64,000 nucleotides of DNA from Leifsonia sp. Leaf336. Its GTDB lineage: Bacteria > Actinomycetota > Actinomycetes > Actinomycetales > Microbacteriaceae. The notes under the pieces were generated by a model that was given only the letters and a program-made list of their open reading frames with translations, was not told the origin of the DNA and searched no databases. The DNA lies in the NCBI RefSeq assembly GCF_001423695.1, contig NZ_LMOZ01000001.1:1797272-1861271 (forward strand). Direction: 5' to 3'. Positions 20,865 through 23,749 of this stretch are shown in pieces (position 1 is the first letter of the stretch; each line of letters begins with the position of its first letter). A program made the position numbers and the translations under genes.

Positions 20865-20935
20865 GGGGATGTAGCTCAATGGTAGAGCCTCAGTCTTCCA
20901 AACTGATTACGCGGGTTCGATTCCCGTCATCCCCT
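20865..20935 (+). tRNA. tRNA-Gly (anticodon TCC)
   Basis: Cloverleaf with acceptor GGGGATG/CATCCCC and discriminator T. The anticodon loop is CTTCCAA (TCC) on stem TCAGT/ACTGA, and the T-arm is GCGGGTTCGATTCCCGT. CCA is not encoded. The AT-richer island begins right after it, which makes this tRNA a plausible integration site. Confidence 0.96.
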
Positions 20936-20984
20936 CCGAATTACGCGCTCCCAGATTGAGCGACCTCTCCTCTGGACGCCTCCA

Positions 20985-21689
20985 TCAGCTTGAGGCGACC
21001 ACGCGTGCCCGATCGATCCAGCGCGAGAGCAAGCTGAACCCTGCCAAAGCCTCTAGGGCTTCGGCCTCTCCTATCTGATGAATGTCCGCGTCCACATGAT
21101 TGAGCGGATTCCGCACGGCTGAGTAGAGTCCGTGCCCAAGCGCAGCCGCTCCGAGATGAACATCCTTGAAGAGGTCGGGGTTGACGTCGTCTACCAGCCT
21201 CAGACGCGGACGATTGGCTTCAGGCGCGTGAAGGCTAAACACCTCATTCAAAAGCCTTGTCTCCCCAAGGTTGAATCGACCCACCTTCTGTTGGAGCCGA
21301 GAATTCACGTTCACGGCGGCCGCCCATACTGCTGCGTCGTGATTCCCACTAAGCCAGTGTGGGCGAGCGGCATCCCACACCCAAGGGTGAAGAGAGTTCG
21401 CGTTGAAGGTCGGAGCAGGAGCGTCGAGCCCCAGCTTGGACCTCACTTCGTCGCCCTCCGTGAGTTCCCATTTCAACGTGTACACGAAATCGCTCGAGAT
21501 CCAGCGGGGACTTTGACCGTAAATGGCTTCGGCGATTGCGCGTATTGCGTTGTCGCTGTCATGAAGCTCGGTTGAAGTTCCCCGAATCCGGGTCTTCCTG
21601 TTTGCGCGCATTTCATCAGGCGGCAGCGGGACGCGCTCGCGAAGCCATATGTGTCGTTCGATCTGTTCTAGGGCGTACCCGATATCCAT
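20985..21689 (-). CDS. TIGR02391-family (Hypoth_Ymh) protein in an AT-richer island
   Basis: A 234-residue soluble protein. The C-terminal two thirds fit the TIGR02391 pattern: HPWVWDAARPHWLSGNHDAAVWAAAVNVNSRLQQ, then LLNEVFS, then GAAALGHGLYSAVRNPLNH, i.e. 'lHp...GhyaeAV..A' ending in the diagnostic G...RNPxxH. Members are often found in mobile or defence-type contexts; the biochemical role is unknown to me. Codon use is richer in A/T than the flanks, which points to transfer. It is divergent from the Ntn-hydrolase-like gene. It starts at ATG 21689 without an obvious ribosome binding site. Confidence 0.8.
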   Translation of the reverse strand: MDIGYALEQIERHIWLRERVPLPPDEMRANRKTRIRGTSTELHDSDNAIRAIAEAIYGQSPRWISSDFVYTLKWELTEGDEVRSKLGLDAPAPTFNANSLHPWVWDAARPHWLSGNHDAAVWAAAVNVNSRLQQKVGRFNLGETRLLNEVFSLHAPEANRPRLRLVDDVNPDLFKDVHLGAAALGHGLYSAVRNPLNHVDADIHQIGEAEALEALAGFSLLSRWIDRARVVASS

Positions 21690-21811
21690 AGCCAGAACCT
21701 ACTCATCGGCCGAACGTGGATGACTCATTGCTCTCGCAAATCCAAAATGAGGAAATCCAAAAACCGGACGCCTATTCCACCGTGGCATTAGCGACGGCGA
21801 TACTCGGCTTC

Positions 21812-22762
21812 ATGACCCTGCACGTGGCTTTCGTAAGCGAAGCGTCGATAGTTCAGTGCAGTGACCGCCTTTTGACCGTCAACACCGACCCGTGGGACGC
21901 AACTTCAAATAAGACAATCGTCGTTGAAGCAAGAAATGGACGCGCAGTACTAGGTTATGCGGGCCTCGCGCACATTCGGGGTGAACCCACCTCTGAGTGG
22001 CTGGTCCGAAAAATAACCGCGGCGAAGGAACCGTTCACGTCCTTTCAATTCGGCGGAGTCTCCCCTGTTTGGCTCGGAGACGTTCGCGACAGAGTCATCG
22101 GCGGCGTCGAGCGCGAGTTTCCATCCTCTCAGCGGGTTGGGAGACGTCAACGGCTTGAATTGATGATCTGTGGCTGGGGATATCCCCGTCGACTACGCAA
22201 CAGCAAACGTCCGACCGCGTTCATCTGGCAGTTGACGCACTCTGGGGTTCAAGGCGCCAGATGCAAGATTAGGCCAACGACCAGGCTCCGATTTCGAGAC
22301 CCGAGTCGTCGCTGGGCTATCGCGGGGATCGGTCGAGCCGATCTCCTGAATTGCGAGGCGATAAATCAAGAATTGCTTGCGGAAAGCGACCCGTTCGGTC
22401 GCGACGAGGTAGAACGGTCGCTTGTAGGAGCGATCCGATCTGTGGCGGACCTTCCTGGTAGCCGAGTTGGTTCGGACGTTATGTCGGTGTGCTTGCCTGC
22501 TCTGCCTCCAGAGAGTCCAGCGAGCTTTCGCTTTTTCCGCGACACCGGGGTAATTGATGACCGGTTGGGTTATACCCCTGCCCTAGTCAGCTCCCGATCA
22601 GTGTTCCCGCCGGCCGTCATGAATTCAAGTCAGGGATTCTCGGCGGTTTTCAACGCCGACACGCCCTTCGAGTGGGAGTACACAACCGAAACGATCCCAC
22701 CGTGGACTCAGACGGGAGTCCGCACTCTTAGTGTCCAGATGGGCAAGCGCTATGACCCGTAG
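21812..22762 (+). CDS. Proteasome-beta/HslV-like Ntn hydrolase homologue in an AT-richer island
   Basis: A 316-residue protein if started at ATG 21812. After loss of Met the chain begins TLHVAFVSEASIVQCSDR. Counting from that Thr1, Asp17 falls in CSDR, Lys33 in SNKT and Gly47 in LGYAG, which are the catalytic and oxyanion positions of proteasome beta and HslV. A later SDVMSV could supply the supporting Asp/Ser pair. The frame is open from 21716, but that start has no ribosome binding site and leaves only 26 bp to the divergent gene. The internal ATG has a leaderless -10 (GATACT, seven bases upstream). No prcA, pup or hslU is nearby. The substrate is unknown. Confidence 0.62.
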   Translation: MTLHVAFVSEASIVQCSDRLLTVNTDPWDATSNKTIVVEARNGRAVLGYAGLAHIRGEPTSEWLVRKITAAKEPFTSFQFGGVSPVWLGDVRDRVIGGVEREFPSSQRVGRRQRLELMICGWGYPRRLRNSKRPTAFIWQLTHSGVQGARCKIRPTTRLRFRDPSRRWAIAGIGRADLLNCEAINQELLAESDPFGRDEVERSLVGAIRSVADLPGSRVGSDVMSVCLPALPPESPASFRFFRDTGVIDDRLGYTPALVSSRSVFPPAVMNSSQGFSAVFNADTPFEWEYTTETIPPWTQTGVRTLSVQMGKRYDP

Positions 22763-23092: not shown

Positions 23093-23749
23093 TCACCGCT
23101 GCAGCACCGCCAGCACCGCGAGCACCCTCCGGTGGTCGTCCCCCGAGTCCTCGAGCCCCAGTTTCTGGAAGATCGACGTCACGTTCTTCTCGACCGCACC
23201 GACGCCGATGACCAGACGCGCCGCGATGGCGGCGTTCGTGCGGCCCTCCGCCATGAGGCCTAGGACATCGCGCTCGCGCGGGGTCAGCGACTCCAGCGGG
23301 TCGGTGCGGCGCACCAGCAGCTCGCGCACCACCTCCGGGTCGAGCACGGTGCCGCCGGCGGCGACGCGGGTCACGGCGTCGCGCAGCTCGTCGAGGGAGG
23401 CCACGCGGTCCTTGAGGAGGTAGCCGGTGCCTCCGCGGCCGCTCGCGAGCAGCTCCTGCGCGTAGGTGCCCTCCACGTACTGGCTGAGCAGCAGCACACC
23501 CACCCCGGGGAACGACGAGCGCAGCTCGAGCGCCGCGCGCACGCCCTCGTCGCGGAACGTGGGAGGCATCCGGACATCCAGGATGGCGACGTCCGGCTGC
23601 AGCGACGGGAGGGCGGCGAGCAGCGACTCCGCGTCGCCGAACGCGCCCACGGTCTCGAACCCGGCCTCGTCGAGGAGGCGCACGAGGCCTTCGCGCAGCA
23701 GCACGGAGTCGTCGGCGACGACGAGACGGAGCGGGGTGGTGGCAGGCAC
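23093..23749 (-). CDS. NarL/FixJ-type response regulator
   Basis: A 218-residue two-domain regulator. The receiver domain (about 7-125) has the acidic pair Asp13/Asp14, phospho-acceptor Asp58 in AILDVRMPP, and Lys in LLKDR. The LuxR-type helix-turn-helix follows at about 150-200 (LTPRERDVLGLMAEGRTNAAIAARL). It lies 38 bases downstream of the histidine kinase gene and is its cognate partner. The HTH carries IGVGAVEKNV where most relatives have LSxxTVxxHV. Target genes are unknown. Confidence 0.93.
   Translation of the reverse strand: MPATTPLRLVVADDSVLLREGLVRLLDEAGFETVGAFGDAESLLAALPSLQPDVAILDVRMPPTFRDEGVRAALELRSSFPGVGVLLLSQYVEGTYAQELLASGRGGTGYLLKDRVASLDELRDAVTRVAAGGTVLDPEVVRELLVRRTDPLESLTPRERDVLGLMAEGRTNAAIAARLVIGVGAVEKNVTSIFQKLGLEDSGDDHRRVLAVLAVLQR

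Follow-up and report, generated by a model that had tools for sequence, protein, structure and literature searches.

What does a proteasome-like gene do beside a tRNA gene in a bacterium whose genome gives no match to the proteasome family? The question is raised by a gene on the + strand (21812..22762) of a 64,000-nt stretch of DNA from Leifsonia sp. Leaf336 (GCF_001423695.1, contig NZ_LMOZ01000001.1, positions 1,797,272-1,861,271 of the forward strand), referred to here as the window. A preliminary description had proposed that this gene encodes a new self-contained threonine hydrolase of the proteasome beta/HslV kind. Our reading, to which we assign a probability of roughly 45%, is that 21812-22762 encodes a predicted stand-alone N-terminal-threonine hydrolase at a tRNA-Gly accessory-gene hotspot, likely acting against phages. 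The predicted enzyme class is the firmer part of this reading: the profile and motif comparisons described below, together with models of low confidence, give good support to a stand-alone proteasome-beta/HslV-like N-terminal nucleophile (Ntn) hydrolase that is distinct from both the housekeeping 20S core and HslV.

Translation start and active-site residues

The open frame on the + strand spans 21716 (GTG) to 22762. The start was picked by comparison with the genes of the family, and ATG 21812 is supported as the best candidate; it gives a protein of 316 aa in which the initiator Met is directly followed by Thr1, the predicted nucleophile. In 11 of 15 family genes, the window gene counted (10 of 14 genes plus gp30 of Gordonia phage Nymphadora), no in-frame start is present between the preceding stop and the codon before Thr1; the window gene, L007, L020 and L023 do have one. 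Because the Met adjoining Thr1 is the sole in-frame start available to these 11 genes, a propeptide is unlikely, and the upstream extension in the window (21716..21811, + strand) is probably untranslated. As the family start codons favour ATG 21812, starts at 21716 and 21782 were rejected. The latter is the GTG at which the database copy of the window protein (P0001, 326 aa) begins, contrary to the family start pattern.

Read in frame from the Thr after ATG 21812, Asp, Lys and Gly occupy positions 17, 33 and 47, as the preliminary description had stated. We compared 18 aligned family members with four PrcB sequences from other actinobacterial genomes. Counts for the N-terminal residues use 17 rows (16 in an earlier alignment), as P0003 has a different N-terminus without Thr1, Asp17 and Lys33 and was excluded from them. 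Thr1 (codon 21815..21817, + strand, like the other codons given here) and Asp17 (21863..21865) are each found in 17/17 rows, 16/16 in the earlier alignment. Lys33 (21911..21913) is found in 16/16 or 16/17 rows depending on the alignment; the single exception, L024, is shifted by the aligner and shows a Lys in the other alignment, which makes it 16 or 17 of 17. All three residues are present in the four PrcB sequences. In the members with an intact N-terminus, the three positions are invariant or nearly so.

The claimed exact register therefore holds for Thr1, Asp17 and Lys33 but not for the glycine. The Gly counted as 47 (21953-21955) is Gly in 16 of the 18 rows and Ser in two, and it is the first residue of a [GS]-[YFL]-[ATS]-G motif to whose last residue the proteasome Gly47 aligns. 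This last residue, Gly50 (window residue 51, codon 21962..21964), is Gly in 18/18 family rows and 4/4 PrcB sequences, and the loop preceding it is longer in the clade of the window protein. We rejected the counted Gly47 as the oxyanion residue, its position being a coincidence, and predict Gly50 for the oxyanion hole. The family has the combination of Thr1 (or Ser1), Asp17, Lys33 and oxyanion Gly that defines proteasome-like proteins, with the Gly at residue 50. A downstream SDVMSV segment, suggested earlier to provide a supporting Asp/Ser pair, holds up for the Asp only: Asp221 (22475..22477) belongs to a V-G-x-D motif, lines up with the Asp in the G-G-P-D stretch of PrcB and is acidic (D or E) in 15 of 17 rows, but the Ser is S in just 6 of 17.

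Homology and predicted fold

In its match to proteasome beta, the family profile places Thr1 on Thr1 (hhalign, score 47.4, E 4.1e-6), whereas the best of 300 column-shuffled controls scored 21.4 and none of the 300 came near the real value. Two AlphaFold2 (AF2) models of low confidence were built from alignments of seven and eight rows, and both keep helices H1 and H2. One of them (mean predicted local distance difference test, pLDDT, 45) shows an element order that matches the Ntn fold, with H1 at residues 60-69, H2 at 88-102 and a short S3/S4 loop, followed by about 90 residues beyond the modelled core. In Foldseek, all 50 rows listed for this low-confidence query model are proteasome or Anbu entries, and in many 20S rows VIA-align places residue 1 on 1 or 2 on 2. 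The earlier proposal of a stand-alone hydrolase of this class thus gains an in-register profile match, a motif alignment and a low-confidence fold match.

Several results weigh against this assignment. The proteasome match needs a broad profile, and with a 4-row profile of the closest clade the probability drops to 1.0, with the single sequence to 0.1. The family profile gives no match to PrcA (0.2%), and the window protein was not recognised in Pfam, NCBIfam, PHROG, PADLOC or PDB sequence searches. A Ser129-like residue occurs in 3 of 17 rows and is not conserved. Both models are of low confidence (mean pLDDT 46.7 and 45.1), the first is without strands S8 and S9, and the PDB rows of the Foldseek search have query-length TM-scores of 0.29-0.39 with root mean square deviations of 6.5-9.2. 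In 5lox and some other Anbu rows, the VIA-align register is off by one, model residue 2 falling on chain residue 1.

Searches against PDB sequences with three query forms returned nothing below E 0.018, the row at E 0.018 being a kinase; one of them aligned an HslV chain to residues 2-52 (E 0.31), ranked below unrelated rows. The VIA-align rows listed do not include connectase, HslV or BPH, which excludes none of them. Sub-cut-off Pfam matches to Inh (0.15), CRISPR_assoc (0.011, L006) and Connectase (0.16, L019) were rejected.

Housekeeping identities were rejected from the host genome. Neither the window protein nor any other protein of the genome matches the Proteasome family (Pfam: PF00227) over the cut-off, so that the window protein is not classed as HslV. 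The Pup-ligase family (Pfam: PF03136) likewise has no match over the cut-off in the genome; HslU and Mpa were not part of this search. The statement that the gene is neither the 20S core nor HslV is upheld to this extent. As neither a 20S core nor a Pup ligase is seen in the genome, and as the nearby Clp genes are conserved core genes, the protein would act alone or with housekeeping factors.

Size and distribution of the family

As judged by sequence searches, the family is small, divergent and sparse. Among 5.8 billion proteins, the single sequence found four matches, a 4-row profile six and a 9-row profile at least five, the protein itself included. The protein search detects only relatives with common short exact words, and these counts are therefore lower bounds. 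Profile searches of Actinomycetota genomes, the only phylum covered, found members in 2 of 398 genomes of the same taxonomic family, 5 of 376 of the order (one rejected), 4 of 394 of the class (one rejected) and 3 of 396 of the phylum, and in 1 of 5 and 1 of 16 genomes of two further families. These samples overlap; the first four contain the own genome, and scoring in them was limited to five candidates per genome. The protein of Gordonia phage CarolAnn as query matched 4 of 396 phylum genomes, one match, L013, being set aside as a relative. Two frames, L021 (oxidase-like) and L025 (HNH-like), were rejected as relatives by eye.

Outside chromosomes, tblastn identified gp36 of the Gordonia phages CarolAnn and Blino and gp33 of Ruthy (six records), as well as a homologue carried by a plasmid of Mycobacterium marseillense. 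The fold search pointed to Nymphadora gp30, which carries the active-site motif and is present in nine records from six named phages. The Nymphadora stretch viewed (20000-42000 of 53431) has two 289-aa genes, and gp30 was picked as the fold match by its motif and not by accession. It is 35.5% identical to the M. marseillense plasmid gene, from which a simple tblastn also leads to it. The family thus spans actinobacterial genomes, Gordonia phages of two divergent temperate lineages and a Mycobacterium plasmid. Scans of viral contigs found no match to profile A1, to four distant relatives or to P0006, and with the CarolAnn protein only itself and that of Ruthy; among plasmids, tblastn found nothing with the window protein or with those of L006, CarolAnn and L019.

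A tRNA-Gly site with accessory genes

The gene lies between tRNA-Gly(tcc) (20865..20937, + strand), which bounds the hotspot on the left, and a conserved response-regulator gene on its right (23093..23749, - strand; Pfam), with the tig and clpP genes beyond tRNA-Pro; by analogy with L002, clpX would be expected at the same tig/clpP site. The tRNA region is kept in 9 of 9 same-genus genomes, tRNA-Gly(tcc) is also present in L002 and L003, and tblastn finds the response regulator in 7 of the 9 same-genus stretches and in L002. None of the nine has the proteasome-like gene. Homologues follow the same tRNA-Gly in Leifsonia sp. 71-9 and in a Microbacterium metagenome-assembled genome. The earlier remark that the gene sits in an AT-richer island was borne out: its GC content is 0.577, and its GC content at third codon positions (GC3) is 0.609, compared with 0.90-0.94 in four flanking genes.

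The distance from tRNA-Gly to the response regulator is 0.9-7.8 kb in the seven genomes in which both ends were seen. Predicted defence genes occupy this interval in four of the nine same-genus genomes; in the other five, no open reading frame (ORF) of the interval was tested. The cargo consists of PDC-M34A/B without the proteasome-like gene (L058), DUF5343 with bSEFIR (L062), TIR (L061), and a TIR-like protein with AbiTii and an integrase (L060). The end of the L060 element is a repeat of the tRNA 3' end (43/45). The Microbacterium copy starts 29 bp after PDC-M34A/B, and there an integrase C-terminal fragment lies downstream and a tRNA-end repeat (35/45) closes the element. The window retains no att repeat (best 22/45 on the + and 26/45 on the - strand). 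Across L056-L064, the tRNA-Gly(tcc) site beside tig/clp is an accessory-gene hotspot of the genus and its relatives, with TIR, SEFIR, AbiTii, PDC-M34 and further genes without an assignment, and is worth mining for new defence genes.

Mobile and defence contexts of the relatives

A mobile or defence context was seen at 12 of 15 loci: the window, L002, L003, three phages, the plasmid, L065, L066, L067, L070 and L071. The phage homologues sit between the tail genes and the integrase. Neighbours elsewhere are a TrwC relaxase (L065), a TIR-TM gene (L066), an Mrr-type nuclease (L067), an ArdC-like gene (L070), and an integrase with DUF3800 (L071). The window protein itself matches no defence system catalogued in PADLOC 2.0.0, though neighbours do.

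Set against this are the three loci without a mobile or defence gene (L068, with one ORF tested, and L069 and L072, with none), as well as the choice of neighbours at the 15 loci, which was made by eye with no random control and with the contigs of P0003, P0005 and P0006 excluded.

Relation to known proteasome homologues

According to the sections of Fuchs, Alva and Lupas 2021 used here (PMC8665760), 22 novel subfamilies of proteasome homologues exist, some of them in phages; except for proteasome beta and HslV, the homologues lack a propeptide, and the authors found no AAA+ partner for them. The same sections report few clues to function and no informative genomic context. The window family likely corresponds most closely to DAH, the Distant Actinobacterial proteasome Homolog (77 sequences, representative WP_085249540.1), the two being compared by description only (PMC8665760). 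DAH is listed for Actinobacteria and phages (Table 1 of that paper) and has an extra C-terminal domain that matches no known structure; relatives of the window protein, searched for among genomes of this phylum, occur in actinobacterial genomes, Gordonia phages and a Mycobacterium plasmid, and about 90 residues follow the core in the low-confidence model. The Thr1/Asp17/Lys33/Gly47 site is common to the homologues. They differ in that the paper, in the sections used, gives no informative context for DAH, whereas the window family has a mobile and defence context. The kind of hydrolase had already been described, and to call it new is too strong. New is the context: a tRNA-Gly hotspot with defence genes, the adjacency to PDC-M34, and two temperate-phage lineages with one copy transcribed in lysogens. 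Among the literature matches listed, no title tests a proteasome-like protein in phage defence.

Other homologues are more distant. PrcB has Thr1, Asp17, Lys33 and the oxyanion Gly in register by the profile match, but the window family probably lacks a propeptide and has no conserved Ser129, an extra C-terminal part and no 20S or Pup-ligase match in the genome. Anbu is likewise a stand-alone bacterial proteasome homologue and is among the best fold matches, but there is no sequence match, and its long C-terminal H5 coiled coil (PMC8665760, in the part used) is absent from the low-confidence model. Connectase (MJ0548) is also a stand-alone Thr1 enzyme, and the first 24 residues of one relative have a sub-threshold Pfam match to it (E 0.16). 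It is archaeal and is described in the same part of PMC8665760 as having no H1/H2 and a two-helix insert between S3 and S4; the models of the window family retain H1/H2 at low confidence. The candidate system PDC-M34 of PADLOC uses the same tRNA-Gly insertion site and directly precedes the Microbacterium gene, but each occurs without the other (PDC-M34A/B alone in L058, the proteasome-like gene alone in the window and L002).

Possible function

Methionine aminopeptidase prefers small second residues. After translation from ATG 21812, it would remove the Met and expose Thr1 without a propeptide, as the starts of the relatives suggest. The protein would then have an Ntn domain of the proteasome type, with Thr1/Asp17/Lys33 in the active site and Gly50 in the oxyanion hole, as pointed to by profile, motif and low-confidence model, and about 90 C-terminal residues of unassigned fold. 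Thr1 is predicted to attack a peptide or amide bond, the protein acting alone or with housekeeping factors. Temperate phages, a plasmid and an integrated element are seen to carry relatives. Encoded in a prophage or island, the enzyme would cleave a phage or host protein on infection and so limit superinfecting phages. Because relatives occur in phages, on a plasmid and next to defence genes, the gene likely serves phage-bacteria conflict. The suggested accessory role, such as defence, gains support from the phage, plasmid, hotspot and defence-gene context, but the function itself is still deduced from that context.

The same class of enzyme could instead be a specific protease or connectase-like ligase acting on a protein of the element or prophage, or could help the host in lysogeny; we consider this somewhat unlikely. 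Connectase demonstrates that monomeric ligases exist among proteasome homologues, and Fuchs et al., in the sections used, saw no context indicating one function (PMC8665760); copies are also seen on a plasmid and close to a TrwC relaxase. However, the models retain the H1/H2 that connectase is without (at low confidence), no single neighbour gene recurs at the 15 loci viewed by eye, and the tRNA-Gly hotspot with the TIR, Mrr and PDC-M34 neighbours leans to defence. The mobile distribution could also be read as counter-defence or anti-restriction cargo, the hydrolase helping the element to establish by inactivating a defence protein of the host. The ArdC-like anti-restriction gene near L070 and the homologues in phages and on a mobilizable plasmid fit such a role, which nevertheless appears quite improbable given that the chromosomal copies lie at a site common to defence genes and that the phage copy is transcribed in the lysogen (PMC6426606, in the part used). 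That the gene is a decaying or catalytically dead remnant whose Thr-Asp-Lys-Gly pattern arose by chance is very improbable: its rarity, with no copy in the nine sampled same-genus genomes, the relative L007 of just 120 aa and P0003 without the N-terminal motif would suit a remnant, but the frame is intact, the motif is invariant over large divergence and the profile falls in register on PrcB.

The preferred reading, an anti-phage hydrolase, has a possible link to phage exclusion by CarolAnn. In the part of PMC6426606 used here, CarolAnn lysogens transcribe genes 34-36, somewhat below other lysogenically expressed genes. The lysogen reduces plating of the phages Woes, Monty, Huffy, Vendetta, UmaThurman, Utz, Blueberry and Wizard, and the same eight plate normally on a strain with CarolAnn genes 43-45. 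The main text of PMC6426606 contains neither the term gene 36 nor gp36. We infer that gp36 is one candidate among several for the unexplained defence of CarolAnn, the genes 34, 35, 38 and 39 being equally open candidates, which counts against singling it out. A broader proposal, which we put forward only tentatively, is that a descendant of the proteasome catalytic subunit became a self-contained anti-phage threonine protease traded among temperate phages, plasmids and tRNA-linked islands, with gp36 being part of the second exclusion system of CarolAnn.

This is one proteasome-homologue family with a repeated mobile and defence context, including sequenced temperate phages of a tractable host, and this context makes the function of such proteasome relatives experimentally testable. 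If the proposal is true, proteasome-type catalysis would be tied to phage-host conflict.

Neighbouring genes and further observations

Divergent from the proteasome-like gene is a Hypoth_ymh/TIGR02391 (HEPN-like) gene (20985..21689, - strand; Pfam: PF09509, E 7e-21), which falls under the NCBIfam cut-off for TIGR02391 and matches Aga_HEPN (1.2e-10) and PD-Lambda-3_B (1.3e-8) in PADLOC. It too is foreign by GC3 (0.643). A promoter and terminator scan found nothing exceeding shuffled sequences.

In the phages, small ORFs end shortly before the homologue, 9 bp in CarolAnn (gp37, 80 aa, L008:7749-7991) and 24 bp in Ruthy (gp34, L009:3713-3976); their products may be partners of the phage homologue. 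Beside the relative in L070, two large unannotated ORFs (447 and 505 aa) lie on the - strand at L070:6609-9641, and the first 400 residues of each have no Pfam match over the cut-off. A 965-aa ORF (L067:7044-9941, reverse complement) lies near a relative and the Mrr-type nuclease. Finally, L035 (G422:C159:14495-15022) is a stand-alone protein starting with MTL that exceeds the Pfam Proteasome cut-off and matches the family profile at 57.7% over 47 columns; its genome also has PrcA/PrcB-like genes and a short member of the window-protein family.
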